Below are positions 764 through 52,206 of a DNA stretch of 52,778 nucleotides, piece after piece. The first letter of the stretch is position 1; the number at the start of each line of letters is the position of its first letter. Under the pieces are notes generated by a model. The model was not told the origin of the DNA. It worked only from the letters and a program-made list of their open reading frames with translations, and made no database searches. The translations under genes and the position numbers were made by a program. The stretch comes from Pirellulaceae bacterium (GTDB lineage: Bacteria; Planctomycetota; Planctomycetia; Pirellulales; Pirellulaceae): positions 1-52,778 of the forward strand of contig JAKVBZ010000032.1 in NCBI GenBank assembly GCA_022448645.1. Reading direction: 5' to 3'.

Positions 764-1588
764 ATGATCGCTGAGAGCCGTCGAGTCAAGCTGTTGGAGG
801 TGATTCGCCAACGCAGCTTTGCCTCCTTGCCAGATTTGGCCGAAGTGATGGCGGTTTCGGAATCGACAATCCGGCGGGACCTGGAGCAATTGGAGGCCAG
901 CGGTGTCGCCAAGAGGACGCATGGTGGCGTGTTTTACATCGGTCCGAGACCTCACCTGCAACATTTCGACGACCGTCAGACTTCCGGCTGGGGCCGCAAG
1001 CGAGCTATTTCCCGAGTCGCAGCTGATTTGATCGAGGACGGTGATACTGTACTTCTCGATGGAGGCAGCACCACTTACGAGTTGGCTCAGTTACTGGTCG
1101 GACGACCATTGCAGATCGTCACTAACTCGCTGCCTGTAGCCACGTTGTTCACCTCGAGTATGGAAACGGATTTGGTGATGATTGGGGGCTATATCCACTC
1201 ACGAACTGGCGTGTCTCTTGGTCCATACGCACTGGGCATGCTGGAAGAACTGAACGCGCGGCGCGCCATTTTGAGCGTGGCGGGAGTGAACGAGCGTGGG
1301 TACTTCAATAGCAATCTTCTTTTGGTCGAAACTGAAAAGGCCATGATGCGAGCCGTCGATGAAGTCATCATCGTGGCCGACAGTACGAAGTTTGGTCACC
1401 AGAGCTTGGCGCTTCTCTGTGAGTTAGGAGAGATACACCGGTTGGTTGTGGACGATGCGATTGATAAGCCTTGGCTGAATAAATTGGCAGCTGCGGGAGT
1501 TGACGTGCGTTTGGCCTCTGTGGAAGACGCTGATGAGCATCAGGATGATGAATATCAGGACGATGAGGAAAGGGAACGGGGTAAGTGA
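764..1588 (+). CDS. DeoR-family transcriptional regulator of the BMC locus
   Basis: A 274-aa DeoR/GlpR-type repressor. Residues 5-57 form the winged HTH: the recognition helix reads [14 protein letters not shown], followed by the wing RTHGG, both typical of the family. The rest is the DeoR sensor domain, with the sugar-phosphate-binding signatures [10 protein letters not shown] and IVTNSLP, and VADSTKFG near the C-terminus. These domains usually bind a phosphorylated sugar intermediate and release DNA. A short acidic tail (ED, DDE and EDEER-like runs) extends the usual family length. It is the first gene of the locus, and its stop overlaps the GTG start of pduL by four bases (GTGA), so the two are probably translationally coupled. 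Inference: it controls the locus in response to fuculose- or rhamnulose-phosphate, as proposed for related planctomycetes. The ATG has only a weak G-rich upstream sequence as a ribosome site. Confidence 0.9.
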
Positions 1589-2295
1589 CTATCAGGCAAA
1601 TCGATTTCGTAGATCGTAATCAGGTGGAGCGATTGGTTCGTGAGATTGTTTCACGGCCAATGCAGCCCGTTGCTCATCAGGACGCGTCTAGGCCGTCGGA
1701 GTTGGTGGTCAGCGTGTCAGCCAGGCACTGTCATTTGACTGACGAACACGTGGAAACGCTGTTTGGTCCCGGGCATCAACTGAAGCCGTCCAAGCCGTTG
1801 TATCAAGACGGTTTTTTTGCAGCCGAAGAAACGGTGATGGTAGTAGGGCCTAGGCGTAGAATGTTACCCAACGTGCGTGTGCTGGGTCCCACCAGGCCGC
1901 ATGATCAGGTCGAGTTGGCATTCACCGATGGCATTTCGCTCGGTATCGACCTTCCGGTACGACCAAGCGGCCAGATTGCTGGGACTCCAGGGTGTGTGTT
2001 GGTGGGGCCAGCAGGAGTTGTCGAGCTTGCCGAGGGAGTGATTCGTGCGGAGCGACATGTGCATATGAGTGACCACGATGCAGCTAGGTATGGCGTTCAA
2101 AACGGCGACCGCATGGACTTGCGTGTGGTGGCAGGAAGTTGCAGTACGGTGTTGAACGGGTTGCTAGTTCGCGCAGATACTGCCAGTAAGCTGGAAGTAC
2201 ATCTCGATACGGACGAAGGAAATGCCTGTAATCTTGACCAAGCGACACAGGTCGAGTTAGTGCAAGTGCAGGAAGAGTGTCAATGCCACTCGTAG
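1585..2295 (+). CDS. pduL: PduL-type BMC phosphate acyltransferase
   Basis: A 236-aa PduL/PTAC protein that interconverts acyl-CoA and acyl-phosphate inside the microcompartment and recycles CoA. Two PTAC beta-barrel halves are visible. The first carries the zinc-ligand motif SARHCHLT (His48, His50), the second AERHVHMS (His158, His160). The N-terminal helix [14 protein letters not shown] is amphipathic and precedes a Pro/Ala/Gln linker, the pattern of a BMC encapsulation peptide. The GTG start at 1585 overlaps the DeoR stop; an A/G-rich stretch (gaggaaaggg) lies upstream. It sits first among the enzymes, 104 bases ahead of the first shell gene. Its partners in sequence are the CoA-acylating aldehyde dehydrogenase and the kinase. 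Family assignment is firm. The true acyl group (lactyl rather than propionyl or acetyl) is inferred from the aldolase in the same locus. Confidence 0.93.
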
Positions 2296-2318
2296 CTTTT
2301 CGGGAGTAGTATCACGTA

Positions 2319-2342
2319 GGAGCTTTGTAGTAACGAAGCTCC
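2319..2342 (+). other. Hairpin between pduL and first BMC-H gene
   Basis: GGAGCTTT (2319-2326) pairs with GAAGCTCC (2335-2342): seven Watson-Crick pairs plus one G-U closing pair around an 8-base loop. It lies in the 104-base spacer before the first shell gene and has no T-run, so it is not a classical terminator. It could stabilise or mark a processed mRNA end that separates low-dose enzyme from high-dose shell expression; that role is inference. Confidence 0.4.
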
Positions 2343-2399
2343 GAAATCATTCGGAATTTGTTAACTCAGTTATTTTCACCATTGACTGGAGACTCAGGT

Positions 2400-2693
2400 A
2401 TGCCAAAGACCATTGAAGCACTCGGCATGATTGAAACTCGCGGCTTTGTGGCTTTATTGGAAGCTACTGACGCGATGATGAAGGCGGCGAACGTCGACTT
2501 CAAAGGATGGGACAAAGTTGGATCAGGTTTGGTGTCCGCGTTTGTAGCGGGCGACGTTGCGGCGGTGAAGGCAGCGACGGACGCGGGGGTTTCCGCTGCT
2601 GGTCGTGTTGGCGAGGTGATCAGCGTCCAAGTGATTCCACGTCCCCACGAAGACTTGACGAATGTCTTGCCGAAACTTGCAAAAAGTAAATGA
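2400..2693 (+). CDS. BMC-H hexameric shell protein 1
   Basis: A 97-aa single BMC domain (Pfam00936 type) that forms hexameric tiles of the microcompartment facets. Diagnostic features are the N-terminal strand [20 protein letters not shown], the helix-turn KAANVDF, the pore loop VGSG (residues 40-43), the segment [13 protein letters not shown] and the C-terminal strand VIPRPHEDL. The frame could start 14 codons earlier, at 2358, but the ATG at 2400 is chosen. It follows GGAG (about 2388) at a good distance, and the protein then begins exactly where the family does. It pairs with a second, clearly paralogous BMC-H 111 bases downstream. The C-terminal tail ends in KLAKSK, longer than that of the second copy. 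Confidence 0.95.
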
Positions 2694-2753
2694 TTTCGAC
2701 GAGGTAGAACGATGTCACGCGAGCCGGGCGTGAGTCCATCAATGTAACCAATT

Positions 2754-2787
2754 GTCGTTGTGTTCGGCCCACACGAGTGACTTTTTT
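2754..2787 (+). terminator. Terminator-like attenuator between the two BMC-H genes
   Basis: The arm 2754-2763 (GTCGTTGTGT) pairs with 2771-2781 (ACACGAGTGAC) around the 7-base loop TCGGCCC. There are ten pairs including two G-U, with one bulged G at 2775, followed directly by six T at 2782-2787. This is the form of an intrinsic terminator, but it lies inside the operon, 18 bases before the second BMC-H start codon. Read-through could set the ratio of the first to later shell genes. That regulatory role is inference. Confidence 0.5.
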
Positions 2788-2804
2788 GAGTAGGAAATAG
2801 ACCT

Positions 2805-3074
2805 ATGAGTACAGCAATCGGCTTGATCGAAACGAAAGGCCTGGTAGGGCTGATAGAGGCCACCGACGCCATGGCCAAAGCAGCTAATGTGGATATCGTG
2901 AAGCGGATCGGCATTGGCGGAGGATTGGAAACAACCGTTGTACGTGGCGACGTGGGAAGTGTTCGAGCCGCAGTGGAGGCTGGTGCCCAGGCTGCGAGCC
3001 AGGTCGGCGAGTTGGTGTCGAGTCACGTCATTCCGCGTCCTGCCGACGGTTTGGTGGATGCTTATTTGAAGTAG
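2805..3074 (+). CDS. BMC-H hexameric shell protein 2
   Basis: An 89-aa single BMC-domain shell protein, paralogous to the preceding gene. Shared landmarks are [42 protein letters not shown] and VIPRPADGL. The pore loop reads IGGG (residues 37-40) rather than VGSG, so the two hexamers should have different pore linings. The ATG follows AGGA at a normal distance. It ends nearly flush with the conserved domain (DAYLK), with no long tail. It lies after a terminator-like hairpin and about 150 bases ahead of the kinase gene; that spacer holds an imperfect inverted repeat at 3132-3155 (CGGAAACGG/CCGTTGCCG, one mismatch). The two BMC-H genes together would supply the flat facets. No tandem-domain BMC-T gene is present in the window. 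Confidence 0.95.
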
Positions 3075-3226
3075 GGCCAAAGTGCGGGGCGTTATACGCA
3101 TTCAGTGACCTGGCAGCTGCCTGCCGGAACACGGAAACGGTTCATGCCGTTGCCGTAATCTGGAATGAAGGCTGCTGCCGCAGGATGAGTAAAGCCCACA
3201 GATTGGCTCTGATCGAGGGGGGAGTG

Positions 3227-4411
3227 ATGAAAATTCTAGTAGCGAATCTTGGGTCAACCAGTTTTAAGTTTCGCTTGCTGGATATGGTCGACCAGACTCA
3301 GTTGGCTCGAGGCGGTGTCGATCGCATCGGGTCTGTACAGAGTCGTTGTCGAGCCGAAATTGGTTCGTTCACCGATGAGACGACTCGCCGGGTGTCCAAT
3401 CATGCGGATGCACTGGATTATTGTTTTCAGCAGTTGACAGATCCTGAATATGGCTGTCTGGCTAATGTCAATGATGTCGCAGGAGTAGGGTTCAAAACGG
3501 TTCATGGTGGGCGCGCCAGCGGGGTGCAACGTGTCAATGAAGACGTCCTGCAAGCGATGCAAGAAATGTCGTCCGTGGCTCCAGCTCATAATCCACCGTA
3601 CATCCGAGCGATGCGTTTGATGTCGGACCGGTTTCCCGAATTGCCACTCGTGGCCGCATTCGAAACAGAATTTCACCAAACCATTCCCGAGCGACAGCGT
3701 CGCTATGCCATTCCAAGCGATTGGGCCGAATCGTACCAGGTCAAGCGTTGGGGGTTTCATGGAGCCAGTCACCGTTACATTGCCGAGCGAACCGCAGCCG
3801 TCATGGGGCGCGACGACCTGCGTGTGATTTCGTGTCACCTGGGCGGCTCTAGCAGCCTATGTGCCATCCGAAACGGGGCTAGTGTTTCCACAACGATGGG
3901 GATGAGTCCCCAAACAGGACTCCCACAGAACAATCGTGTGGGAGACTTTGATCCGTTTGCTTTGCCATGGTTAATGGAACGTACTGGTAAGACGCTGCCG
4001 GAGCTATTGCAAACGTTGGCTAACGAAAGTGGTTTGGCCGGTTTGAGTGGAACTAGCGGGGATGTGCGTGATTTAGAAAACGCCGCCGTTGAAGGGGATG
4101 CAAAGGCTCAGTTGGCACTAGAGGTGTATACGACAGACATTCGACGGCAGTTGGGCGGACTGCTTGTGGAATTGGGGGGGGCAGATGTGGTCGTGTTCAC
4201 CGGAGGTATCGGTGAAAACTCAGCCGGTATTCGGACCGCTGTGTGTCGGCAACTGGAAGAACTGGGCGTCGTGTTAGATGGTCGCGCCAATGTCGGGGCA
4301 CAAGGTGAATGTGAGATATCGTCACCCCAAAGCCGTGTCAAGCTGTGGGTGATTCCGACGAACGAAGAAATTATTGTGGCCCGACAAGTCCAAAAGCTTT
4401 TGCAAGGGTAG
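3227..4411 (+). CDS. ackA: Acetate kinase family protein of the BMC locus (divergent active site)
   Basis: A 394-aa acetokinase-family enzyme expected to convert the acyl-phosphate made by PduL into carboxylate plus ATP. Visible signatures are ILVANLGSTSFKF (residues 3-15), AHNPPYI, GFHGASHRYIAER, NNRVGDFDPF (active-site Arg retained), FTGGIGENSAGIR and the C-terminal PTNEE glutamate. Two positions differ from characterised acetate kinases. The FDTAFHQ motif reads FETEFHQ (catalytic Asp replaced by Glu146), and GHRVVHGG reads GFKTVHGG (active-site Arg replaced by Lys90). These changes suggest a BMC-specific subfamily, perhaps tuned for lactyl-phosphate; that is inference. The start at 3227 is chosen over 3185 because the purine-rich gaggggggagtg precedes it and it matches the family N-terminus. 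The stop codon overlaps the ribosome site of the next shell gene. Confidence 0.88.
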   Translation: MKILVANLGSTSFKFRLLDMVDQTQLARGGVDRIGSVQSRCRAEIGSFTDETTRRVSNHADALDYCFQQLTDPEYGCLANVNDVAGVGFKTVHGGRASGVQRVNEDVLQAMQEMSSVAPAHNPPYIRAMRLMSDRFPELPLVAAFETEFHQTIPERQRRYAIPSDWAESYQVKRWGFHGASHRYIAERTAAVMGRDDLRVISCHLGGSSSLCAIRNGASVSTTMGMSPQTGLPQNNRVGDFDPFALPWLMERTGKTLPELLQTLANESGLAGLSGTSGDVRDLENAAVEGDAKAQLALEVYTTDIRRQLGGLLVELGGADVVVFTGGIGENSAGIRTAVCRQLEELGVVLDGRANVGAQGECEISSPQSRVKLWVIPTNEEIIVARQVQKLLQG

Positions 4412-4415
4412 GACC

Positions 4416-4724
4416 ATGTTTGTTGCTAAAGTAACTGGTGCCCTCGTGGCAACTCAAAAGGTAGACACGATGGTCGGTCATAAGCTCCTGGTTGTCGAGC
4501 CTTATCGACTGGACAGTGAGAGTCGAAAAAATCTCGCGCCCACCGGACGAACGTTTGTAGCTGTCGATACCGTTGGCGCCGGCGACGGGGAAATGGTGCT
4601 GATTACGCAAGGATCCAGCGCACGCCTCACGCCCGAGACGAAGAACCTGCCAGTCGACACGGTAATCATAGGGATCGTAGATCAAGTGCATGTCGACCAA
4701 TCGTGTGTGTATGACCGCGATTAG
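4416..4724 (+). CDS. BMC-P (EutN/CcmL) pentameric shell protein 1
   Basis: A 102-aa EutN/CcmL-type protein that forms the pentamers capping the shell vertices. Features: N-terminal strand MFVAKVTGALVATQK, KLLVVEPYRL, the signature DTVGAGDGEMVLITQGSSAR, and a C-terminal IIGIVDQV strand. The ATG at 4416 is chosen because AAGGGTAGGA sits just before it and includes the stop codon of the kinase gene, which indicates tight coupling. It has a slightly longer insertion between the second and third strands (DSESRKNLAPTGR) than the second pentamer protein. It is one of three BMC-P genes in the locus, each placed beside an enzyme gene. The compound loop would change the vertex surface or small channel; its functional meaning is unknown. 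Confidence 0.93.
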   Translation: MFVAKVTGALVATQKVDTMVGHKLLVVEPYRLDSESRKNLAPTGRTFVAVDTVGAGDGEMVLITQGSSARLTPETKNLPVDTVIIGIVDQVHVDQSCVYDRD

Positions 4725-4804
4725 GTCGAATTCGCTCCCGCGCGGAAGGTGGGAATGAGCGGCAAAGTAGAAGTATCATTTGGGTAATAGATTGAGATAA
4801 CAAA

Positions 4805-6238
4805 ATGCAGTGGAACGAAAATTTAATTCGGTCGGTTGTCACGCAGGTGCTTGCCGAAGTGGGGCAGATACCATCTATGCAAGGTTCCGGTGCCGCCACC
4901 GGTCGTCACGGCGTTTTCGATTGTGTGCAGCAAGCCGTCGCTGCGGCACGCGATGCGTTCGAGCAGCTTTCCGAGCGTACGATCGAAGATCGCAAACGAA
5001 TCATTGACCACATTCGCCGAATTTCCATCGAACAGCGAGTCGAATTGGGCACGATGGAAATGGAAGAAACCCGCATTGGTCGGCTCGAGCACAAGATCGA
5101 AAAACTCATGACACTCGGGAAAAAGACTCCAGGTGTTGAATTTCTGAGGAGTGAGATCTTCAGCGGTGATCACGGGTTAGCCGTTATTGAACATGCTCCT
5201 TTTGGCGTGATCGGTGCCATCACACCTGTCACGCATTCGCTTCCCACGATTACCGGCAACGCCGTCAGTATGATAGCAGGCGGTAATACTTTGGTCGTCA
5301 ACCCTCATCCCAGTGGCCGACGAGTGGCGGCTGAAGGAGTTCGCCGGTTTAACGAAGCGATTTACCAAGACTTGGGTATCGATAACCTTATCTGCGTCAT
5401 TAGTGAGCCTACGCTTGAATCGGCTAACGAAATTTTCAGTCACCGCGACGTGGCTCTCATCTGTGTTACGGGTGGGCCTGCGGTCGCTCGGGCGGCCTTG
5501 AATTCAGGCAAACGTGCCATCGTTGCAGGCCCTGGAAATCCACCTGTGGTCGTTGACGAAACGGCCGACCTGGCAAGAGCTGCCCGCTCGATCATCACTG
5601 GCGGTGCCTATGACAACAACCTGTTGTGTATTGCTGAAAAAGAAGTGTTTGTCGTCGAGTCAGTGTTTGACGAGATGATGTCGGCCATGGAGCAGGAAGG
5701 CGCCGTCCGCCTGCAGCCTGCAGAAGTCGATCGGCTGACCCGTGAAGCCATCACTGCCGTCGGTGAGGGTGCACACAGGCACGACGTGCCAGCCAAGGAG
5801 TTCCTGGGACAGGATGCGAGTGTTCTGGCGAGGGCTGTCGGAAAATCTGTTACCGAAGAAACGGAATTGTTGTTCGGGGAAACCGATGAGACGAGCCCAT
5901 TTGTTTCCGTTGAACAAATGATGCCATTTGTTCCCTTTGTTCGTTGTCGAAACGTCGATGAGGCGATCGATAAAGCTAAGCAATATGAACACGGATTCCG
6001 TCATACGGCCATCATTCATTCCACCAACGTGCGCAACATGACTCGGATGGGACGGGTTATGGACACAACCTTATTCGTCAAAAACGGCCCTTGCTTTTCG
6101 GCTTTGGGGGTAGGCGGCGAAGGATACCTTTCATATTCCATCGCGACGCCAACCGGCGAAGGTGTCACGACGCCTTTGACGTTCACCCGTGAACGGCGCT
6201 GTTCAATGATTGATGAATTGTGCATTTTAGGGAAGTAA
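4805..6238 (+). CDS. BMC CoA-acylating aldehyde dehydrogenase (PduP-like)
   Basis: A 477-aa aldehyde dehydrogenase that should oxidise an aldehyde to acyl-CoA with NAD+ in the BMC lumen. The first ~18 residues, [17 protein letters not shown], form an amphipathic helix followed by a Gly/Ser/Ala linker, matching an encapsulation peptide. The Rossmann/ALDH core shows [24 protein letters not shown] and [12 protein letters not shown]. The catalytic Cys is in NNLLCIAEK (Cys275), as in PduP/EutE enzymes. The substrate is inferred to be L-lactaldehyde from the neighbouring class II aldolase, with lactyl-CoA then passed to PduL. It lies between two vertex-protein genes. The ribosome site is weak (TGAGATA before ATG). 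Family is certain; substrate is inferred. Confidence 0.94.
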
Positions 6239-6263
6239 ACGAGGGCCAAAAGTTACAAAACTC

Positions 6264-6524
6264 ATGCTGTTAGCACTCGTCATAGGTACCGCTGTTGCGA
6301 CGAAAAAGCACGCCACGATGCAGGGGCAAAAGCTCCTCGTGGTGCAGCCTCAGTTGCGCGATGGGAAGACTCCTGACGGCGACCCTCAGATTGCGGTGGA
6401 CGGAGTTGGAGCAGGAATTGGTGAGATGGTGATGATCACTAGCGACGGTCGTACGGCAAGGCAAATTGTAGGACATGACAACACGCCGGTACGCTGGACC
6501 GTGATTGGGATTCAGGATGCATGA
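6264..6524 (+). CDS. BMC-P (EutN/CcmL) pentameric shell protein 2
   Basis: An 86-aa EutN/CcmL-type vertex protein, the shortest of the three. It begins MLLALVIGTAVATKKH and continues with KLLVVQPQL, the signature GVGAGIGEMVMITSDGRTAR, and ends TVIGIQDA. Its stop codon overlaps the ATG of the next gene (ATGATGA), so the two are translationally coupled. It follows the aldehyde dehydrogenase by only 25 bases. The compact strand loops make it the most canonical member. Three BMC-P paralogues in one locus is the arrangement known from PVM-type microcompartments, where heteromeric or alternative pentamers are possible. Confidence 0.93.
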   Translation: MLLALVIGTAVATKKHATMQGQKLLVVQPQLRDGKTPDGDPQIAVDGVGAGIGEMVMITSDGRTARQIVGHDNTPVRWTVIGIQDA

Positions 6525-7201
6525 TGATTTCAGAATCTCAAATCGAGGAAATTGTGGGGCGAGTCGTACAGGAACTGCGCCAACGGGAAAAGTTAGCAAT
6601 ACAACAGGTCAACGTACCGGCAACCGAGAGCGAAAGAAATGCGTCCGAGGTGTGTGTCCTGAACGAGCGGGTCGTCACACTGGCTGTTGTAGAAAAACTC
6701 ACAGTTCGTCCGGCGGAGCTGCGGGTACCGACGGGAGCCGTCATCACTCCTTCGGTGCGTGACTGGTTGCGCGAACAAGAGGTAGAACTGGTGTTCGAGA
6801 CTTCTCCACAGAAGAATTTGGTTTCGCCGAACAGACTCGTTTGGTTGGTGCGGTGGCGCACGAACATGTCAGACGAAGCTTGCTGTCATGTGAAAATGAC
6901 AGGAAACGTTCAAAGTGAATGGTACGAAGGTGCAGATGCTATCCAACGGGTTCACCAACGACTTCGTGATGAGCAGGGATCGTGTCGCCTGCGTGTAGTG
7001 TTGTTTACTGACTTTCCAGCTGTCGCGGTATGTGAGTTAAATCGAGAAAAAAATGTACGGGCGGCGGCATGTGCCGACATGGCGTCGCTAAGAGATTCCT
7101 TGACGACGTTGCAGCATAATGTGTTGGTGTTGGGTACCCGACACAGTCGTGTGAAAGAACTTGTCGGGTTGGTTTCCGAATTCGGCAACGCGTCACCATA
7201 G
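6521..7201 (+). CDS. BMC-associated protein: encapsulation-type helix plus degenerate RpiB-like domain
   Basis: A 226-aa protein without a firm family name. Three parts can be seen. Residues 3-22 (ISESQIEEIVGRVVQELRQR) form an amphipathic helix like an encapsulation peptide. Residues 48-92 contain VVTLAVVEKL, then LRVPTGAVITPSVRDWLRE, a short element that I associate with BMC-linked proteins. Residues ~155-220 read AVAVCELNREKNVRAAACAD, then HNVLVLGTRH, which follows the spacing of the RpiB/LacAB fold (its AANKxxGIRAA and NVLxLGAR motifs). The RpiB catalytic Cys-containing glycine loop is not evident, so it is probably not an active isomerase. It overlaps the upstream vertex gene by four bases, and a third vertex gene follows. 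A second ATG at 6524 is an alternative start. The RpiB relation is a pattern-based inference needing a profile search. Confidence 0.72.
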   Translation: MMISESQIEEIVGRVVQELRQREKLAIQQVNVPATESERNASEVCVLNERVVTLAVVEKLTVRPAELRVPTGAVITPSVRDWLREQEVELVFETSPQKNLVSPNRLVWLVRWRTNMSDEACCHVKMTGNVQSEWYEGADAIQRVHQRLRDEQGSCRLRVVLFTDFPAVAVCELNREKNVRAAACADMASLRDSLTTLQHNVLVLGTRHSRVKELVGLVSEFGNASP

Positions 7202-7249
7202 TGGGCCTGAACATAGCAATAAGACGAGAGATAAATACAGAAAGCGTTT

Positions 7250-7552
7250 ATGCGAATCGCAAACATCATCGGTACCGTCACACTCAGCCGAGCTCATCCG
7301 AGCTTGCGTGGTGCCACATGGAAAATGGCTGTGCCGTTAGGGTGGGATCAATTGGTTGATGATGAGCCCGCCACGAGAGAAGCGCTGGTGCTCTACGACG
7401 AGTTAGGGGCGGGGCAGGGTAGTCGAGTCATGTTGAGCGAGGGTCGTGAAGCGTCTCAGCCGTTTTATCCTGAAGTCAAGCCGATAGATGCCTACAACTC
7501 CGGAATCCTGGACGACGTGTATTTAGGGCCATCTGTCGGCCAGAAGAAGTAG
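7250..7552 (+). CDS. BMC-P (EutN/CcmL) pentameric shell protein 3
   Basis: A 100-aa EutN/CcmL-type vertex protein, the most divergent of the three. It opens with MRIANIIGTVTLSRAHPSL, has MAVPLGWDQL in place of the usual LLVVQP strand, and carries the signature ELGAGQGSRVMLSEGREAS. The tail ends YNSGILDDVYLGP, contacting the region where other members have IIGIVD. It is separated from the next gene by nearly 290 bases, so the transcript may end or restart here. The NWxL/GWDQL-type change and the SEGREA loop suggest a different interface from the other two pentamers. Confidence 0.9.
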   Translation: MRIANIIGTVTLSRAHPSLRGATWKMAVPLGWDQLVDDEPATREALVLYDELGAGQGSRVMLSEGREASQPFYPEVKPIDAYNSGILDDVYLGPSVGQKK

Positions 7553-7838
7553 AAATAGGTGATGGCTGCCTCAGCGTCGTACACAGGCCGCTTTCCACCG
7601 AACGAGCTCCATCGATGCCGTAACCTAGAGACAAAGTTTTAGCGGTTTATACAGACTAAAGGCTTATGAAAACGAACTGTCACAATAACAACTTTCTGCG
7701 AAATAATTGTATCTCGTAGGCCAGGGCGCGGTATCGCCGTGTACCTTGTTGCATTCAAAATTTCGATAGGTGGCCGAAAGCTACCAGCTTGATTCGAACG
7801 TTATCACACAACCCACGACCCCTTAACCCAGAGTGATC
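7553..7838. other. Spacer before the aldolase gene
   Basis: A 286-base spacer inside the BMC locus, by far the largest there. It is AT-richer around 7635-7715. A small stem (GGTGGC/GCTACC, one G-U, loop cgaaa) lies near 7770. I see no pair of -35/-10 hexamers good enough to call, but its length suggests that the aldolase and dehydrogenase have their own promoter. Confidence 0.4.
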
Positions 7839-8699
7839 ATGCAAAATATCCACCGTTTAAAACAAGATATCTGTGAAATTGGCCGCCGTATCTATAACAA
7901 AGGATTTGCGGCGGCCAACGATGGCAACATCACCGTGCGCGTTAACGATCACGAAGTACTTTGCACTCCGACCATGCATTCCAAGGGTTTTTTGAAACCT
8001 GACGACATCGCCATGGTTGATATGGAGGGAAATCAAATCGCCGGTCGGAAGAAACGGTCCAGCGAGGCACTCTTGCATTTGGAAATCTACCGGCAACGAC
8101 CCGATGTACATAGTGTGGTTCATTGTCATCCACCACACGCTACCGCGTTTGCTGTCGCGCGTGAACCGATCCCACAGTGTGTCTTGCCCGAGGTGGAAGT
8201 TTTTTTGGGGGATGTTCCGATCACTCAGTATGAAACACCTGGCAGTCAGACGTTTGCTGACACGATTATCCCGTTTGTGAAAAACACGAACGTCATGATC
8301 CTGGCAAACCACGGCACGGTTAGCTACGGCGAAGACGTGGAGCGCGCCTATTGGTGGACGGAGATTCTAGATGCCTACTGCCGCATTCTGATGTTGGCTA
8401 AGGACTTGGGACGCGTTAATTACTTCACGGAGGGCAAGGAAAGGGAGTTGTTGGAACTGAAACAGAAATGGGGTTTCAGTGATCCACGTAATACCCCCGA
8501 CTTTCAGGATTGTGATATTTGTGCGAACGACATTTTTCGGGATAGCTGGCAAGCAGCTGGCGTGGAGCGTCGAGCTTTTGAGGCGCCGCCGGCCATGTCG
8601 CCAACTTCTAACCAGCAAAGCAATCTGGACCAAGAACGTCTCGTTCAATTGATTACTGAACGGGTGATGGCTGCGTTATCTCAAGGAACATCATTGTGA
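7839..8699 (+). CDS. Class II aldolase with C-terminal encapsulation peptide (fuculose/rhamnulose-1-phosphate type)
   Basis: A 286-aa class II (zinc) aldolase/adducin-family enzyme expected to split L-fuculose-1-phosphate or L-rhamnulose-1-phosphate into dihydroxyacetone phosphate and L-lactaldehyde. Active-site landmarks are AANDGNITVRV, SSEALLHLEI with the general-base glutamate (Glu76), the zinc histidines in VHCHPPHA (His95, His97), and ANHGTVSYGEDVE (His158). After the fold come CDICAND and a linker rich in Pro, Ser and Gln. The C-terminal helix LDQERLVQLITERVMAAL is a clear encapsulation-peptide-like tail. ATG 7839 is preferred to the GTG two codons upstream. It overlaps the following dehydrogenase gene (GTGA). 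The tail marks it as lumenal cargo, consistent with keeping lactaldehyde inside the shell. Confidence 0.92.
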   Translation: MQNIHRLKQDICEIGRRIYNKGFAAANDGNITVRVNDHEVLCTPTMHSKGFLKPDDIAMVDMEGNQIAGRKKRSSEALLHLEIYRQRPDVHSVVHCHPPHATAFAVAREPIPQCVLPEVEVFLGDVPITQYETPGSQTFADTIIPFVKNTNVMILANHGTVSYGEDVERAYWWTEILDAYCRILMLAKDLGRVNYFTEGKERELLELKQKWGFSDPRNTPDFQDCDICANDIFRDSWQAAGVERRAFEAPPAMSPTSNQQSNLDQERLVQLITERVMAALSQGTSL

Positions 8700-9631
8700 A
8701 GATAAGTATCATTGGTGGTGGGGGTCTGGTGGGATCGTGTGCCGCTTACGCGCTGCAATTCAGTGGTGTAGTGAGCGAAATTGCGCTATTGGACGTCCAT
8801 GAAGAATTGGCCGCGGCACAGGCACTTGACCTGCAACACGGTGGCCCGAGCACTTCTGACCAACGGATCTATGCCGGGGGATATGAACATGTTCGCGATT
8901 CAGACTTTGTATGTATCACTGCAGGCCTGCGACGCAAGCCAGATGAAAGTCGTTTGGATCTGATAAATCGAAATGTCGATCTGTTTCTAAAGATCCTTGA
9001 CCAGATCGAAACCGTCGGAGTTTCCTCGGAGACAATTGTTCTAGTGGTGTCGAACCCTGTCGACGTGCTGACCTATCTAGCAGCACAGAGATTGCAATTG
9101 CCCTGTTCTCAGGTGATCGGGTTGGGGACACAACTAGATACGATCCGGTTTCGCAGCCTCATTGCGGCAGATTTGAACGTGGCACCAACGCAGGTGTCGG
9201 CGGTAATCTTGGGAGAACATGGTGATAGTATGGTTCCCGTATGGTCGTCAGCAACGATTGCGGGACTGCCTATGGACAAGTACCCAGATTGGAATATCCA
9301 AAAGGCGAAAGAGCTATTTAAGAGGACTCAGGGCAGTGGCGCCGAGGTGATACGTGGCAAAGGGGGGGCAGGCTTCGCAGTGGGAGTGGCTATCCGAGAT
9401 GTGATTCAGCCGATGGCACTCAATCAACACTGCGTACTTCCGATTTCAAGTGTCCAACAAGGGTGTTACGGAATCCGAGACGTAGCACTGTCCGTTCCCA
9501 CTGTGGTTGGACGATCGGGTGTTGTAAAACACCACGAGATTGATCTCTGGCCCAAGGAAGTGCAGGCCATTCGCCAGAGTGGTTCGGTGCTTCGCCAAAC
9601 ATTACAGACCGTGTTGGCCCGAGTTGGCTAA
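8696..9631 (+). CDS. Lactate/malate dehydrogenase family protein of the BMC locus
   Basis: A 311-aa NAD-dependent LDH/MDH-fold dehydrogenase. The nucleotide-binding motif is IIGGGGLVGSCAAY, with Asp in LLDVHEE. The substrate-side residues are Arg in LDTIRFR and the proton-relay His175 in GEHGDSMVP. In the specificity loop, AGLRRKPDESR, position 102 (LDH numbering) is Arg80 rather than the Gln of lactate dehydrogenases, and the 246 region reads KGGAGFAVG. Both point toward a malate-like or an unusual 2-hydroxy acid or hydroxyaldehyde substrate. The GTG start overlaps the aldolase stop, so both are made together. No encapsulation-type tail is evident. Possible jobs are NAD recycling or handling lactate/lactaldehyde around the shell; the true substrate is unresolved. 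Confidence 0.87.
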   Translation: MKISIIGGGGLVGSCAAYALQFSGVVSEIALLDVHEELAAAQALDLQHGGPSTSDQRIYAGGYEHVRDSDFVCITAGLRRKPDESRLDLINRNVDLFLKILDQIETVGVSSETIVLVVSNPVDVLTYLAAQRLQLPCSQVIGLGTQLDTIRFRSLIAADLNVAPTQVSAVILGEHGDSMVPVWSSATIAGLPMDKYPDWNIQKAKELFKRTQGSGAEVIRGKGGAGFAVGVAIRDVIQPMALNQHCVLPISSVQQGCYGIRDVALSVPTVVGRSGVVKHHEIDLWPKEVQAIRQSGSVLRQTLQTVLARVG

Positions 9632-10901: not shown

Positions 10902-11462
10902 TTAGTCATCCATGACTTCAGTTTCACGACTCTTGGAAAGCTCAGTAGCCTGCGTTTCGTAGGATTTTGTCAAATCCTGGATCTGCTTTTTAAGATCGTC
11001 GCGTTCGTCCTCACTGATCGCCTTCGATTTTTCTTCCTGGTCAGCAGTCTTGTTGCCATCGCGACGAATATTTCGAATCGAAACTTTAGCTTCCTCCGCT
11101 AAATCTTTGATGCGGCTAACCATCTTCTTCCGCACTTCGGTCGACAACGGAGGGATATTAATACGGATCAGGCGTCCGTCATTTTGAGGCGTGAAGCCGA
11201 GATTACCACCGATGATCGCTTTTTCGATGTCTTTGATGGTATTAGGATCGTACGGTCGGATGACTATCTGTGTTGGTTCTGGAGCTCCGACCGACGCGAT
11301 TTGTTTGATCGGAGTGGGGGACCCGTACACATCCACGCGCAACGAATCTACCAATCCCGGATTAGCTCGTCCGGTTCGAATACCGGCCAAGCTGTTTTTG
11401 AGCACCTCAATCGCCTTTTCCATGCGCATTTCAGTGTCTAGCACAATGTCGTCAACACTCAT
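10902..11462 (-). CDS. frr: Ribosome recycling factor
   Basis: A 186-aa ribosome recycling factor, the normal family length, which with EF-G splits post-termination ribosomes. Conserved stretches are [18 protein letters not shown], the [13 protein letters not shown] segment, [22 protein letters not shown] (here LGFTPQNDG), and the C-terminal helix RNIRRDGNK. The two-domain pattern (long three-helix bundle with a central beta domain) fits. Its ATG overlaps the pyrH stop by four bases, so translation is coupled. It is the last of the classical rpsB-tsf-pyrH-frr order. Confidence 0.97.
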
Positions 11463-12229
11463 CGTTCAACTTCCGCTACTTGTTGATTGCTGGAGATTAA
11501 AGTTCCGACACGTTCGCCTCCAACTGCCCGTTGAATATTACCTTCTTTTTGGTAATTGAAAACGAGAATGGGCATGTTGTGCTCCATGCATTGCGTGATG
11601 GCGGTGTGATCCATGACTCGTAGATCTCGTTCTCGAACCGTGTTGTAGTCAAGGTGTCGGTAAAGTACAGCATGAGGATTCGCTTCCGGATCTTCGCTGT
11701 AGACTCCGTCAACGCGGGTGGCCTTGAGCAATACATCGGCTTCCAATTCGAGGGCTCGTTGAGCAGCAGCCGTGTCTGTTGTCACAAATGGACTGCCTGT
11801 CCCAGCCGCCATAATGCAAATGCGTCCCTTTTCCAAGTGCCTGCGTGCCCGACGGCGAATATACGGTTCGGCAACACCGTCCATCCGTATGGCAACCATG
11901 AGTCGAGTATCACAGCCGAGTGATTCCAACGCGTCCTGTAAAGCCAAACCATTGATGGTGGTTGCCAACATGCCCATGTAGTGTGCGGTCGCTTCTTGGA
12001 TCTCGGCACTGGTGGTTTTGAAATGAGCGCCGCGCAGGATATTGCCACCGCCAATGACGATTGCGATTTGAGTTCCACGTTGGCTTGCACGTTTCACTTC
12101 GCCTGCGATTCGTACGACTTCGTCCATACTGATTCCACGTTCACCAGCATGCGCGAAACCCTCACCGGATAATTTGAGAATTACCCGCCGGTAAGGTAAC
12201 ATTGTCTCCGAAAGTTCTTGCGTAGCCAT
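11459..12229 (-). CDS. pyrH: UMP kinase
   Basis: A 256-aa bacterial UMP kinase of the amino-acid-kinase fold, converting UMP to UDP in the cytoplasm. Motifs are [11 protein letters not shown] near residue 17, [28 protein letters not shown], the phosphate-binding [14 protein letters not shown], and [15 protein letters not shown]. It is slightly longer than the usual ~240 residues because of the N-terminal [15 protein letters not shown] and the C-terminal NQQVAEVER; an internal Met at residue 10 is another possible start. It sits between tsf (30 bases upstream) and frr (4-base overlap). Confidence 0.96.
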
Positions 12230-12259
12230 CTGGGGGAATCCCGAGGTTAGTGGATACCG

Positions 12260-13099
12260 TTAATCTTCTTTGCCGAGTACCCAATGTACGAATTGAACGA
12301 CCTTCATGTCATTTTGTTTGGCAAATTGTCCAACCGTCTGCTTGTCGTCTTTTACAAAGGGTTGTTCCGTCAATACGTGTTCGGCATAAAAGTTTCGCAT
12401 GCGGCCTTCCACCATTTTGTCGATGATGTTTTCAGGTTTTCCTTCCTGACGAGCCGCTTCGGTCAAGATGCTGCGCTCTTTTTCAACCAGATCCTGATCC
12501 AGTTCTTCTTTATGAAGGGACTTGGGGCTGAGTGCAGCGATGTGCATGCAAATGTCTTTGGCCGCGTCTGCATTGCCACCTTCCACTTGCAGGAGTGCAC
12601 CGGCGACTGTTGACGCATTGTGGCTATAGGCTCCACACGAACCATCCAAACGGATCATGCGGCCGACATTAAAGACCTCTCGAATTCGGTTGAAAAGATC
12701 GTCTTTGACTTCACGGAGCGTTTTACCTGACTGGCTTGGACTTGGTTGGTCCAGCAGTTCTTCGGCTGAGCTTACATCCGGACCGTTGGCTAGTTGAGAA
12801 GCCAGATCGTTGGCTAACTGAATGAATTCTTCATGTTGAGTCACCGGCGCACTTTCACACTTCAATTCGACCATAGCTCCAACAGACGGGCTGTCGAAGC
12901 TGGCAAAAATCCCTATGCGACCGAAGGCTGTTTCGCGGTCCGCACGAGTTTCCATCGTCTTGGCACCGCGTTCGCGAAGTCTGGTAATTGCTGCGTCTTG
13001 GTCGCCGTCGGCCTCTTGCAATGCCTTCTTGCATTCCATCATCGGAAGACCAGTCTTGTCACGTAGGGCTTTCACAGCAGCAGCAGTTATTTCCGGCAT
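12260..13099 (-). CDS. tsf: Translation elongation factor Ts
   Basis: A 279-aa EF-Ts, the guanine-nucleotide exchange factor for EF-Tu. The N-terminal UBA-like domain has VKALRDKTGLPMMECKKAL (residues 9-27), then the core with FDSPSVGAMVELKCESAPV, and the C-terminal core repeat with MHIAALSPKSL. The ATG is preceded by GGGAG at normal spacing. A 277-base spacer with several hairpins separates it from rpsB upstream, so it may be regulated separately from S2; pyrH follows after 30 bases. Confidence 0.96.
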   Translation of the reverse strand: MPEITAAAVKALRDKTGLPMMECKKALQEADGDQDAAITRLRERGAKTMETRADRETAFGRIGIFASFDSPSVGAMVELKCESAPVTQHEEFIQLANDLASQLANGPDVSSAEELLDQPSPSQSGKTLREVKDDLFNRIREVFNVGRMIRLDGSCGAYSHNASTVAGALLQVEGGNADAAKDICMHIAALSPKSLHKEELDQDLVEKERSILTEAARQEGKPENIIDKMVEGRMRNFYAEHVLTEQPFVKDDKQTVGQFAKQNDMKVVQFVHWVLGKED

Positions 13100-13376
13100 T
13101 TCATGTTTCTCCCAATTGCCAATACGCTCTAAACAACGGAATCTGAATGTTCGCCAACGGTCAATGACCAGGCTTGGATGACAAATTAACGATTGTGTCC
13201 CTTCCTGTTCCGCCAGGTGAAATGCCTGGTGGATCTATGCGGGACAATGTTCAAGAGGAAGTTGAACCATGTGCCAGACTTGGTTCAAGGCAAAGCCTGT
13301 TCGCCTCATCGATGGTCCGTGTGACCATCGTTAATGACAGTCATATTCCCCAATGAACCACGAAACTATAGACAGC
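13100..13376 (-). other. rpsB-tsf spacer with three inverted repeats
   Basis: The 277-base spacer carries three hairpins: GATGGTC/GACCATC (13311-13317/13323-13329, 5-base loop), TTGAACCA/TGGTTCAA (13262-13269/13281-13288, 11-base loop), and CGCCAGG with CCTGGTG (near 13212-13232, one G-U pair). None is followed by a T-run on the - strand. They may shape the mRNA between the two cistrons; no gene is present. Confidence 0.45.
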
Positions 13377-14189
13377 TTAACTCGCTTCCACTTCTTCAGC
13401 AGGTGCGTCCTCCGCAGCATTCGTTGCACCGGAATCGGAACTGTTATCGGTAGGCGCGGTTGGTGGTGCTGGCTCCGCCTCCTCCTGCTTCTTCGCCGCT
13501 GCGGCAACACTGCTGCCCTCGATGACCGCGTCTGCCAACTGGGAAACGATCAATTCGATCGACCGAATGCTGTCGTCGTTACCAGGAATCGGCAAGTCGA
13601 CGAAGTCAGGATTGCAGTCCGTGTCGATAAGAGCCACTGTAGTGATGCCCAATTTGCGAGCTTCGGTAATCGCGTTCTTTTCCTTGTTTGGGTCGATGGA
13701 TACGATGACGTCCGGAATCTTGTCCATCGTACGAATGCCATTGAGATTGCGGTACATCTTGCGGTATTCCCGATTCAATGCAGACTGCATCTTTTTCGAG
13801 TAGTTCGCAATTTCGTCGCCCGAACGGATCGTCTCCAGCTCTTCCAGACGAGACAGACGACTGCGGATCGTGCGGAAATTAGTCAGCGTTCCGCCGAGCC
13901 AACGTTCACTAACATAGGGCATTTTACATCGTAGCGATTGCTGTTCGACGGTGTCGCCAGCTTGCCGCTTCGTCCCCACAAAAAGAATCGTGCCAGACTT
14001 TTCCGACACCTGCTTCAAAAAACGCTTCGCGCGGAGTAGTCCGCGGATTGTTTCCCGAATGTCAATGATGTGGATGAGATTCTTGCGGGCGTAAATATAT
14101 GGAGCCATCTTAGGGTTCCAGCGACTCGCCCGGTGACCAAAGTGAACTCCCGCCTGAATTAACTGCTCAACTAATGTGTTTTGCGCCAC
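13377..14189 (-). CDS. rpsB: 30S ribosomal protein S2
   Basis: A 270-aa S2 protein. The family start [20 protein letters not shown], the middle [12 protein letters not shown] and [10 protein letters not shown], and [20 protein letters not shown] with TDCNPD are all clear. The C-terminus is extended by a ~35-residue Ala/Glu/Pro/Ser-rich acidic tail beyond the usual fold. The start is set at the GTG at 14189 and not the GTG at 14198. GGGAGG ends one base before the outer GTG but eight bases before the inner one, and the inner start gives an N-terminus like other S2 proteins. It is the first gene of the cluster with tsf, pyrH and frr. Confidence 0.95.
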
Positions 14190-14356
14190 GTGGCACACCT
14201 CCCATCAAAGATTAACACCCCGTCTCCGCTCATGGTGACGACCTTAAATCAGGACGCCGAGCTCAGATGGGCAGAATAGTGAAAAACAATCCATCCGAAA
14301 TCAACAGATTTCGAAAACCAAACAAGTCCCAAAAATTGACTTGGGAGTAGCGTGTG

Positions 14357-36690: not shown

Positions 36691-38370
36691 ATGTTCCATC
36701 GCTATGCTTATCTTTGGTATCGCGGGTTGCGAGTGAAACGCTTGTTGCACGGCGCGCGGCATGCTACTTCGGTGCAGCGTCGTGTGTTGCGGCAAAAGTT
36801 GTTGCGAAACGGTGCTAGTGAATTTGCCAGGCATCATGGATTGAATCCTCAGACGACGGTGGAAGCATTCCGTCGCCAGATGCCCATCACCACTTACGCA
36901 GACTACCATCCTTATATCGAAAGAGTTAAAGAAGGTGACACTAGCGCCATGTTCGGTCCTAGGACGAAGGTGCTGATGTTTGCTTTGACTTCTGGCACGA
37001 CGAGCGAGTCTAAGTACATACCAGTGACGGACGAATTTTTGAAAGAGTACCGTCGAGGCTGGAATCTCTGGGGGGTCCAAACGTTTCGCCAACATTTAGA
37101 TTTGGTCCGCAAACACGTCGTTCAGTTGACGAGCGACTGGCAGCAGTTTAACACGTCTGCGGGTATTCCCTGTGGCAATATCAGTGGCTTGGCAGTCGCC
37201 ACAGCACCTCGAATCAGTGACCCCATGTTTTTGTTACCGCGATCGTTGATCAAAGTGACGAATTCCTTTGCCAAGCAATACACCGCGTTGAGACTCGCTG
37301 TAGCTTCACCAACAGTCGGTATGATCATTACTGCCAATCCAAGCACGCTGGTGGAGTTTGCTCGTCTGGCAGACCAGCAACGTGAACTAATCATCCGAGA
37401 CATTCACGACGGTACATTGGCTGTCAAGGACGAGATCCCGCCTGGTATACGAGATGTTGTTTTATCAGATTGCCGCAGGGCAAATCCCACACGTGCCAGG
37501 ATGCTGGACCAAATGGTAAACCGTAAAGGTTCGCTTCTGCCACGCGACTTTTGGCCGGACATGTCTGTGCTTGCCGTATGGACCGGGGGGTCGGTGGGCG
37601 CCTACTTGCCGCGACTCAAAGAGTACTACGGTGAGGTAACCTTTCGCGACCATGGACTGTCAGCGAGTGAAGGTCGCATGACGATCCCGCTTGACGCTGG
37701 GACGTCCGATGGAATGCTCGACTTCGCGCATAGCTACTTTGAGTTCGTACCCGAGGGAGAATTAGAGTCGGATAGCCCGACCATTCTCGAATCGCACGAA
37801 TTGGAGGTGGGGCAGAATTACTATATCTTGCTGACGACATCTAGCGGTTTCTACCGCTACAATATCCACGATGTCGTTCGATGTACCGGATACCGCGGGA
37901 CAGCTCCTTTGCTGAAGTTCCTTAACAAGGGCTCCTGTTTCTCCAGCATTACGGGTGAAAAACTAAGCGAGTTTCAGGTAGTCACTGCCGTGCAAAGTGC
38001 CTTTCAACGGATAGGGGTACCGTTAGACACGTTTACGGTGGCTCCAACCTTTGCCGATCCGCCAGGGTATGTGCTTCTCCTTGAATCAGGATCCTGGGAA
38101 GGGAAGCAGGCGGCTCTGGCTCGTGAAGTCGACCGCGAACTTTCGCAAATGAACTGTGAGTACGCCAACCGTCTGCAAAGCAAACGCTTGGAATCGCTCA
38201 GTATCGTTGGTGTTGCACCCGGGACTTGGCGGGCGTTTCGAGATCTTCGCATTCAACGGCTTGGAGGAAGCTTGGAACAATATAAGCATCCGTGCCTTGT
38301 GAACGACCTGCAATTTGTGACGAAACTGCGTCAATTGCAACCCACTGCCGCGGCGTTGAGGGCAGGGTAG
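36691..38370 (+). CDS. GH3 auxin-responsive-promoter family protein
   Basis: A 559-aa member of the GH3 superfamily (acyl-adenylating/amido-synthetase fold). Features: ITTYADYHPYIERVKEG, the phosphate-binding loop FALTSGTTSESKYIPVTDEF, MIITANPSTLVEFARL, SVLAVWTGGSVGAYL, and a motif-rich C-terminal part with YILLTTSSGFYRYNIHDVVR and SITGEKLSEFQV. Plant members conjugate amino acids to jasmonate or auxin; bacterial members are largely uncharacterised. No ribosome site is visible ahead of ATG 36691. It is followed after about 100 bases by an AmrS-like radical SAM gene. Family is clear, substrate unknown. Confidence 0.9.
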   Translation: MFHRYAYLWYRGLRVKRLLHGARHATSVQRRVLRQKLLRNGASEFARHHGLNPQTTVEAFRRQMPITTYADYHPYIERVKEGDTSAMFGPRTKVLMFALTSGTTSESKYIPVTDEFLKEYRRGWNLWGVQTFRQHLDLVRKHVVQLTSDWQQFNTSAGIPCGNISGLAVATAPRISDPMFLLPRSLIKVTNSFAKQYTALRLAVASPTVGMIITANPSTLVEFARLADQQRELIIRDIHDGTLAVKDEIPPGIRDVVLSDCRRANPTRARMLDQMVNRKGSLLPRDFWPDMSVLAVWTGGSVGAYLPRLKEYYGEVTFRDHGLSASEGRMTIPLDAGTSDGMLDFAHSYFEFVPEGELESDSPTILESHELEVGQNYYILLTTSSGFYRYNIHDVVRCTGYRGTAPLLKFLNKGSCFSSITGEKLSEFQVVTAVQSAFQRIGVPLDTFTVAPTFADPPGYVLLLESGSWEGKQAALAREVDRELSQMNCEYANRLQSKRLESLSIVGVAPGTWRAFRDLRIQRLGGSLEQYKHPCLVNDLQFVTKLRQLQPTAAALRAG

Positions 38371-47020: not shown

Positions 47021-48469
47021 CTATGCCAGGATGTCGTGCAGGACTTCACCTTCGACGTCAGTCAGTCGGAAGTCTCGACCGTTGAACCGATAGGTGAGCT
47101 CTTCGTGATTCAGACCCATTTGATGAAGGATAGTCGCGTGGATGTCGTGAGCATTAACTCGTTTTTCCACCGATTTATATCCGAATTCATCTGAGGCTCC
47201 GTATTGGGCTCCGCCTTGGAATCCACCGCCCGCGAACCAGGTGGTGAAGGCATTCGGATTGTGGTCGCGACCGGCAGATCCCTGTGAATCAGACGTGCGT
47301 CCGAATTCGCCACCGTAAATGACGATCGTCTCATCGAACATGCCACGTTGTTTCAGGTCGGTGAGCAATGCAGCGGTTGGTCGATCGACCGAAGCAGCGC
47401 AGTTGGCATGATTGCCCTTGATGTCATGGTGCGCGTCCCACGGAACGTCGCCGCCACCGCCGCCTGGTGTTTTTGCCACGTCGGCGAAAACCTGGACATA
47501 TCGTACGCCACGCTCGACAAGGCGGCGGGCAATCAGGCACTGGCGACCGTAATCCTTGGATTCGTCACGGTTCAGACCATAAGCTTCCTGGGTCGCAGAC
47601 GTTTCACGGTTGATGTCAAATGCCTCGGGTGCTGCCGTCTGCATTCGGTAGGCAAGTTCAAATGACTCAAGTCGAGCATTCAAGTCGCCGTCGAACGGTC
47701 GTTTCTTTGCGTGTCGTGCGTTGGCCGTTCGCAGCGCGTCGAGCAACGATCGCTGATGTTCGTCGGTCAATTCACCGGGGCGGTCGAGGTTCTCGATCGG
47801 GTTGTTTCCGCGAGGATCAAGTGAAGTGGCCTGGTAAACCGAGGGAAGGAACCCGGCTGACCAGATCGGATCACCACCACGCGGCTTCGTGCCGTGCATC
47901 ACGACAAAGGCAGGAAGGTTTGAATTCTCACTGCCAAGGCCGTAGCTGAGCCACGCTCCCAGGTTTGGGAATCCCTGGCGAATCATGCCGGAATTGAGTT
48001 CGAGCATTGCCGGCGTATGGTTATTCGATTTTGAATAGCAGGAATAGACAAACGCAATGTCATCGACGTGCTTGGAGATGTTCGGGAAGATCTCGGATGT
48101 CCATGCACCCGATTCACCATGTTGAGCCCACTTGAATGGAGATTTTAGACATTTCCCACTCGTCGTGAAAAAGCCAGTTTTGGGGTCTGCTCCGGCCAGT
48201 GATGTTCCGTCCCGTTTCTGAAGCTCGGGTTTGTAGTCAAATGTATCGACCTGCGAAGGGCTACCTGTTTGGAACAGCCAGATGACAGCCTTGGCTTTCG
48301 GTGCGAAATGGGATGGTCGATCGGCGAGGGGATTCGAAACCGAAGGAGTTGCCGCAATAACGCCTTCCTGATGCAAAAGGCTGGTCAATGCCAACGATCC
48401 ACAGCCGAGACCGGCCTTCTTTAAGAATTCACGTCGATTTTGCGGGTTGTTGATCATGTGGTGATGCAT
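47021..48469 (-). CDS. DUF1501 (sulfatase-like) secreted protein
   Basis: A ~482-aa protein of the DUF1501 family, related to the alkaline-phosphatase/sulfatase superfamily. The Tat-like export signal is NRREFLKKAGLGCGSLALTS. Then PKAKAVIWLFQTGSPSQVDT, FDYKPELQKRDG, CYSKSNNHTPAMLELNSG, VVMHGTKPRGGD and IVIYGGEFGRTSDSQGSAGR with DHNPNAFTTWF are the family's landmarks. ATG 48469 is chosen because it lies after the stop of the upstream PSCyt1 gene (48483); ATG 48457 is another option. Encoded in the usual planctomycete pair with a PSCyt1-DUF1549-DUF1553 protein. Exact function unknown; such pairs are thought to act on complex polysaccharides or sulfated substrates. Confidence 0.9.
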   Translation of the reverse strand: MHHHMINNPQNRREFLKKAGLGCGSLALTSLLHQEGVIAATPSVSNPLADRPSHFAPKAKAVIWLFQTGSPSQVDTFDYKPELQKRDGTSLAGADPKTGFFTTSGKCLKSPFKWAQHGESGAWTSEIFPNISKHVDDIAFVYSCYSKSNNHTPAMLELNSGMIRQGFPNLGAWLSYGLGSENSNLPAFVVMHGTKPRGGDPIWSAGFLPSVYQATSLDPRGNNPIENLDRPGELTDEHQRSLLDALRTANARHAKKRPFDGDLNARLESFELAYRMQTAAPEAFDINRETSATQEAYGLNRDESKDYGRQCLIARRLVERGVRYVQVFADVAKTPGGGGGDVPWDAHHDIKGNHANCAASVDRPTAALLTDLKQRGMFDETIVIYGGEFGRTSDSQGSAGRDHNPNAFTTWFAGGGFQGGAQYGASDEFGYKSVEKRVNAHDIHATILHQMGLNHEELTYRFNGRDFRLTDVEGEVLHDILA

Positions 48470-48482
48470 ACGAAATGTCAGG

Positions 48483-51911: not shown

Positions 51912-52206
51912 GGTGGTTGTCACTTGATTCTTAGGTGGCTACTGCGGCCGTTTGGATTCCTTTCGTTTCATTCGGATCTGTTATTATACAATATACAAGG
52001 ATGCAATGGATACGAACATCCAGGTATGGACTACATCGCACGCAAAAAGTCGTGCGTCTATACGTTTCCAGATCCGGATCGGTTGGAAACTCTACCGCAT
52101 AGGTCCCCCTTTCCAGGTTGGCTTGTCCCATCGTCAATCCAATCCCGACAAACTCGAACTCGCATGTCTTACCTTTTCGACCCGCCGCCGGCAGTGTTGC
52201 CAAAAC
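51912..52206. other. Spacer before the IS21 remnant
   Basis: About 295 bases, AT-rich at 51970-52010 (GTTATTATACAATATACAAG), which could hold a promoter. The + frames 51777-52253 and 51952-52266 and the - frame 51931-52203 lack protein-like features. No gene is called. Confidence 0.4.

Follow-up and report, generated by a model that had tools for sequence, protein, structure and literature searches.

A PVM-type microcompartment operon in a member of the Pirellulaceae and its twelfth gene, a candidate shell–cargo linker

Introduction

Metabolosomes of the Planctomycetes/Verrucomicrobia (PVM) type are the closest described counterparts of the locus treated here, a bacterial microcompartment (BMC) operon at positions 764-9631 of contig JAKVBZ010000032.1 from a Pirellulaceae bacterium (assembly GCA_022448645.1; the whole 52,778-nucleotide stretch is called the window below). 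In the accessible text of PMC4207490, a DeoR regulator and acetate kinase belong to the PVM definition as ancillary genes, and functional metabolosomes without BMC-T shell proteins are already known; the accessible part of PMC8857213 describes loci of this type in Verrucomicrobiota, serving fucose and rhamnose. The joining of cargo and shell has been studied in other compartments. According to the available portions of the respective papers, residues 9-41 of Salmonella EutQ bind the shell and residues 62-99 the cargo, with loss of either region separating shell from core (PMC12487888), while removal of EutQ residues 1-100 abolished the in vitro interaction with EutM (PMC4827028). In Pdu compartments, PduM aids the joining of shell and core (PMC9132943, accessible part), and it is said in the accessible part of PMC12108088 to have no known homology outside Pdu compartments; PMC12487888, on the Eut linker, does not mention it in its main text. 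No paper linking PduM, EutQ and a PVM gene was found in the open-licence literature, as far as it was searched and its texts were accessible.

The PVM operon of the window contains a twelfth gene, here called gene L, whose product carries a short module related to regions of both PduM and EutQ. With somewhat better than even confidence, we propose that Eut, Pdu, glycyl-radical and PVM compartments share a small shell-gripping module, and that gene L encodes its most stripped-down carrier and the PVM shell–cargo linker, repeatedly discarding an RpiB-like domain that lacks the RpiB motif, in operons without the BMC-T protein that helps to dock Pdu and Eut cargo. As far as searched, this role of gene L is unpublished.

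Architecture and distribution of the twelfth gene

The product of gene L consists of an encapsulation-like helix (residues 5-28), a module of about 50 residues (about 44-93) with TP at 76-77 and an aspartate at 81, and a domain of RpiB fold (102-226). None of the 61 long forms, that of the window included, has the motif G[TS]G[IVLM]G, and only one of them has the aligned cysteine; we take CGTG[IL]G to be the catalytic motif of the RpiB/LacAB family.

Distribution was followed in the best 80 of at least 548 confirmed planctomycete-type loci, which were fetched from genome contigs and chosen via aldolase similarity, so that the survey leans to close relatives; four of these records are labelled only "bacterium", and the rest are Planctomycetes or planctomycete groups. 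Gene L was detected by profile in 75 of the 80 loci, and among the other five only one (L024) is truly without the gene. In nearly all PVM loci it directly precedes the third BMC-P gene. Thirteen of the 75 loci encode short forms consisting of helix and module without the RpiB-like domain, which has been lost on about six occasions, each time with helix and module retained; the split long form in L016 and the locus L029, with runs of N, were excluded from the short set. An origin of the short forms by frameshift was rejected, since the gap between the second and third BMC-P genes (P2 and P3) is 264-463 bases across the 13 short loci. A fusion of P2 with gene L had been suspected from long open reading frames (ORFs) in L024, L080 and L031, which by eye are over-extended starts.

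Amphipathic helices of the encapsulation-peptide type also occur in the enzymes of the operon, N-terminally in PduL and the aldehyde dehydrogenase, as in gene L, and C-terminally in the aldolase. By hydrophobic moment, the PduL helix (near residues 12-22) ranks first of 226 windows and that of gene L stands out similarly (rank 7 of 216), while those of the aldolase (18 of 278) and the aldehyde dehydrogenase (44 of 467) are less marked. The aldolase helix is joined via a variable linker and its sequence is kept in 16 of 16 aligned rows. The gene L helix is amphipathic by sequence and by model and is a putative core-targeting helix.

A module shared across microcompartment types

Profile comparisons point to a module common to gene L, PduM, EutT, EutQ and a flavoprotein of glycyl-radical loci (GRM flavoprotein). 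An hhalign comparison of gene L with the GRM flavoprotein family (77 sequences with PF02441, some of them with PF15953) gave Prob 97.2 and a score of 74.2 over the module, a score that 100 column shuffles did not approach (19.6 at best); the short forms scored 63.7 against the same flavoproteins, with a best shuffle of 22.3. A profile of the short forms ranked E. coli PduM highest (E 5.5e-6) among 702 ORFs taken from six named microcompartment loci, helix and module being matched in the correct order. A two-family profile of gene L and the GRM flavoproteins, run against 884 ORFs of seven loci, placed the Enterococcus EutQ-like cupin (4.8e-10) directly after its own training member, followed by E. 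coli PduM (8.5e-6), E. coli EutT (2.6e-5) and E. coli EutQ (8.5e-4). Two Cetobacterium proteins, one EutT-like (1.5e-3) and one of 88 residues (1.6e-3), and the PduM of Citrobacter (2.2e-3) matched more weakly; none of 30 shuffled profiles did better than 0.025. The protein encoded at the PduM position in Cetobacterium gave only 0.21, and a Klebsiella GRM2 hypothetical protein failed to reach E 1. As well, the full-family profile matched EutC (3.3e-4, via its targeting helix), EutT (4.5e-4) and EutQ (3.7e-3) in the K-12 eut region.

Against the curated models, with E<=1 as the limit, 10 of the 13 short forms matched NF011957 (PduM; best 3.4e-4), 8 matched TIGR02536 (best 2.5e-5) and 5 matched TIGR04493, always under the curated cut-offs. 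The PduM model found weak matches in five of ten PVM genomes, none over the cut-off, and weak matches in 2 of 14 control genomes. A Foldseek search with the module alone against the PDB returned nothing usable (best E 0.17) and no evidence for a new fold. In four of the seven loci a gene lies between PduL and a BMC-P gene, encoding PduM (E. coli, Citrobacter), the flavoprotein (Rahnella) or a hypothetical protein (Cetobacterium), an arrangement not seen in the Klebsiella, Enterococcus and K-12 loci. The 88-residue Cetobacterium protein (L087:16485-16751), which has the module at its start and matches no Pfam family, is encoded right after the BMC-P gene of its eut locus.

Weighing the proposed linker role

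Because its module is homologous to the shell-binding region of EutQ and PduM has a role at the shell–core junction, gene L most likely encodes the PVM shell–cargo linker. Its helix would join the enzyme core, and its module would grip the shell, like the N-terminus of EutQ in Eut compartments.

Several observations weigh against this assignment. The EutQ and PduM scores are modest single-sequence scores. Each half of the PduM match to the short-form profile is weak alone, and the same profile by itself, run on the 182 ORFs of the K-12 eut region, gives E 0.24 for EutQ and 0.025 for EutT. Gene L falls below the curated PduM cut-offs (TIGR04493, NF011957), the best E of 3.4e-4 coming from another locus, and it is not filed as PduM for that reason. 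The position of the module also varies, being C-terminal in PduM and the flavoproteins, N-terminal in EutQ, and central or C-terminal in gene L. In addition, since the module is also found on the enzyme EutT, its presence need not imply linking.

The last point leads to a different reading, which we regard as possible and on balance doubtful, namely that the gene L product is an accessory passenger and the module a generic tag of accessory proteins, with no linking of shell and core. The cobalamin adenosyltransferase EutT and the 88-residue Cetobacterium protein both carry the module, which would fit such a tag. The short forms, however, leave nothing else that could be the passenger, the module region overlies the shell-binding residues 9-41 of EutQ, and almost all loci keep gene L ahead of the third BMC-P gene, all of which speaks against the passenger reading. 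PduM and EutQ share a module with a PVM gene found in nearly every locus examined. If the linker role is right, there would be a common rule for core capture by metabolosome shells, and engineered shells would gain a natural building block about 90 residues long.

The operon and its relatives

The operon is encoded on one strand (Table 1) and has the order DeoR, PduL, BMC-H, BMC-H, acetate kinase, BMC-P, aldehyde dehydrogenase, BMC-P, L, BMC-P, aldolase, LDH (the lactate/malate-dehydrogenase family enzyme, LDH/MDH). The first-pass annotation of the window had described a complete locus of eleven genes; all eleven are present on the plus strand with strong Pfam and NCBIfam scores, but the list was not complete, having left out gene L. 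Its count of two BMC-H genes, three BMC-P genes and no BMC-T gene was borne out by family scans and by a phmmer search at maximum sensitivity. This compared window ORFs of at least 50 aa with the proteins of the operon and with four of the BMC-T type, and it found exactly two BMC-H and three BMC-P proteins and no tandem (BMC-T) protein.

Table 1. Genes of the PVM-type operon, with positions in the window and supporting family matches (E values)
Feature	Position	Strand	Evidence
DeoR-family regulator	764..1588	+	PF00455 1.4e-41, PF08220 1.1e-15
PduL phosphotransacylase	1585..2295	+	PF06130 9.3e-69
BMC-H shell protein 1	2400..2693	+	PF00936 4.5e-26
BMC-H shell protein 2	2805..3074	+	PF00936 1.1e-26
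Acetate/propionate-family kinase	3227..4411	+	PF00871 7.5e-104, TIGR00016 above cut-off; start codon checked
BMC-P shell vertex protein 1	4416..4724	+	PF03319 6e-28; start codon checked
CoA-acylating aldehyde dehydrogenase, EutE/PduP subfamily	4805..6238	+	NF011927 2.6e-188, above cut-off
BMC-P shell vertex protein 2	6264..6524	+	PF03319 9.2e-27
Twelfth gene (gene L), proposed shell–cargo linker	6521..7201	+	helix, module, RpiB-fold domain
BMC-P shell vertex protein 3	7250..7552	+	PF03319 7.9e-17
Class II (fuculose-phosphate-type) aldolase	7833..8699	+	PF00596 1.4e-50
Lactate/malate-dehydrogenase family enzyme	8696..9631	+	PF00056 2.2e-34, PF02866 3.4e-32

The operon has the PF00596 aldolase as signature enzyme, DeoR and acetate kinase as ancillary genes, an LDH/MDH-family gene and the gene order of the PVM type. 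That type had been assigned at first pass, with an alignment against known PVM loci suggested as a check; in the survey, taking the best match per marker, the genes present lie on one strand in the shared order in 80 of 80 loci, and the assignment also fits the descriptions in the accessible parts of PMC4207490 and PMC8217296. The operon is thus a standard PVM microcompartment of an already described type, and because that type has been published, BMC-T absence included, its discovery is not new in itself and adds one further case. No near match of the operon was found on plasmids.

All eleven markers other than gene L are present in 49 of the 80 loci. The incompleteness of the other 31 is explained by contig ends in 20 cases, and 11 have no LDH match. 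Nine of these 11 extend at least 2.6 kb beyond the aldolase (L024, L033, L047, L052, L053, L060, L062, L075 and L080), two of the nine being without DeoR as well.

Outside the operon, a translation block of frr, pyrH, tsf and rpsB, as read by eye, lies beside it on the opposite strand (10902-14198, minus). The window also contains a GH3-family protein (36691-38370; PF03321, 4.3e-67), of a family best known for plant hormone conjugation, as well as a DUF1501 and PSCyt1/PSCyt2/PSD1 gene pair (47021-51923, minus strand), which is common in planctomycetes.

Enzymes, proposed pathway and substrate

The enzymes of the operon are well conserved at the positions expected to matter for catalysis. Aldolase residues E78, H97, H99 and H160, presumably the metal ligands, are invariant in 81 of 81 sequences, and the aldolase as a whole is highly conserved (74-84% identity among 120 listed of 7,356 matches). 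Cys275 of the aldehyde dehydrogenase, which we take to be the nucleophile, is kept in 72 of 72 sequences. The LDH/MDH-family enzyme has Arg80 in 64 of 64 rows at the discriminating position, which we assume to separate malate (Arg) from lactate (Gln) dehydrogenases; given Arg80, the substrate of this PVM "LDH" in the compartment may be other than lactate.

Following the published PVM scheme, L-fucose or L-rhamnose would be converted to fuculose- or rhamnulose-1-phosphate by enzymes encoded elsewhere, and the aldolase inside the shell would split this phosphate into dihydroxyacetone phosphate and lactaldehyde. The aldehyde dehydrogenase would then form lactyl-CoA and PduL lactyl-phosphate, from which acetate kinase would regain ATP, while the recycling of NAD is thought to fall to the LDH/MDH-family enzyme and operon control presumably to DeoR. 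Use of fucose or rhamnose is consistent with the published type and with the invariant aldolase positions, and for the organism of the window we infer this substrate assignment from both. Very probably, then, the window holds an ordinary planctomycete PVM metabolosome operon running the published sugar pathway, with the product of the twelfth gene tying cargo to shell. In this account, the pathway and the roles of EutQ and PduM are taken from the literature, and gene content, order, conservation, the module homology and the loss of the RpiB motif come from the present analysis.

Two findings speak against this account. In the 11 of 80 loci without an LDH match, contig ends do not, or not fully, account for the absence. 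Moreover, 10 of 20 PVM relatives, including Blastopirellula marina DSM 3645, have neither RhaA nor full-length FucI. The sugar isomerase, kinase and transporter genes had been said at first pass to be necessarily encoded elsewhere. Of the 30 ORFs of at least 150 aa from 14 kb on, 19 were scanned with Pfam and contain none of the families of sugar isomerases, sugar kinases or diol dehydratases, the other 11 (mostly overlapping longer ORFs) and shorter ORFs lying outside the scan. RhaA was found in 7 and a full-length FucI C-domain in 5 of the 20 relatives, together in 10 and always off the contig of the PVM locus, so a location of the isomerase genes elsewhere in the genome is plausible, if not shown. 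It is unlikely that the compartment serves a substrate other than fucose or rhamnose, with isomerase genes unseen and maybe absent. The ten relatives without RhaA and full-length FucI, and the lack of an RhaI-type isomerase in all 20, would favour this, but most of the 20 genomes are metagenome-assembled, with completeness not given, an additional protein with a partial FucI C-domain match occurs in 10 of the 20 (two of them below the cut-off), and the conservation of the aldolase argues for the published substrates. It is more unlikely still that the gene L product is itself metabolically active, as an RpiB-like sugar-phosphate isomerase that rides along as cargo and feeds the aldolase, given that the long forms lack the motif and all but one lack the cysteine, and given the absence of the whole domain from 13 of 75 loci after about six losses.

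BMC-T genes outside the operon

The absence of BMC-T noted at first pass stands for the locus and can be claimed for the window only. With one tandem protein as query, a two-domain BMC-T match (E 1.9e-58 or better) was found in 26 of 50 PVM genomes, among them that of L021, the nearest tree neighbour of the window. The BMC-T gene is on the contig of the locus only in L038 and on a different contig in the other 25 genomes. Likewise, a tandem BMC-domain gene occurs alongside the PVM genes in 7 of the 20 PVM relatives. These genes correct the view of PVM organisms as BMC-T-free.

Eight BMC-T regions were fetched, in six of which the BMC-T was read, the ORF overlap filter having removed the BMC-T genes of L101 and L103; no neighbour gene is common to more than two regions. 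Conserved BMC-T genes outside the PVM operon lie, for example, at L100:4592-5239, L099:4636-5400 and L105:4813-5487, and such a protein is possibly a satellite shell part; satellite shell genes are treated in general terms in the accessible part of PMC8217296. A second, shorter tandem BMC protein of 184 aa, which looks unlike the other BMC-T proteins, is encoded at L104:5030-5584 (genome G015). An association of such off-operon BMC-T genes with short forms of gene L was not supported (6 of 8 with short forms, 20 of 40 with long forms; Fisher p 0.26).

Comparison with known systems

Compared by published descriptions, in their accessible parts, no operon difference was found from the PVM microcompartment as in Planctomyces limnophilus. 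The relations of gene L are more distant. With RpiB sugar-phosphate isomerases it shares the fold of residues 102-226, whereas all 61 of 61 long forms are without the motif. The GRM-locus flavoprotein (PF02441, in some cases PF15953) has the same module at its C-terminus, but also a flavoprotein-like domain. PduM, as described in the accessible parts of PMC9132943 and PMC12108088, has an N-terminal targeting helix and the module, as gene L has, and pduM lies directly upstream of a BMC-P gene; in contrast to gene L, PduM has a middle region within PF15953 and its module is C-terminal, while in gene L the module is followed by the RpiB-like domain or by nothing. EutQ differs in having a cupin, which gene L lacks, and in the position of the core-binding part, since the putative core-binding helix of gene L precedes the module and H3/H4 of EutQ come after it. 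The module of gene L is nevertheless related to about residues 2-38 of E. coli EutQ, which lie over the shell-binding H1/H2 region (9-41) described for the Salmonella protein in the accessible part of PMC12487888.

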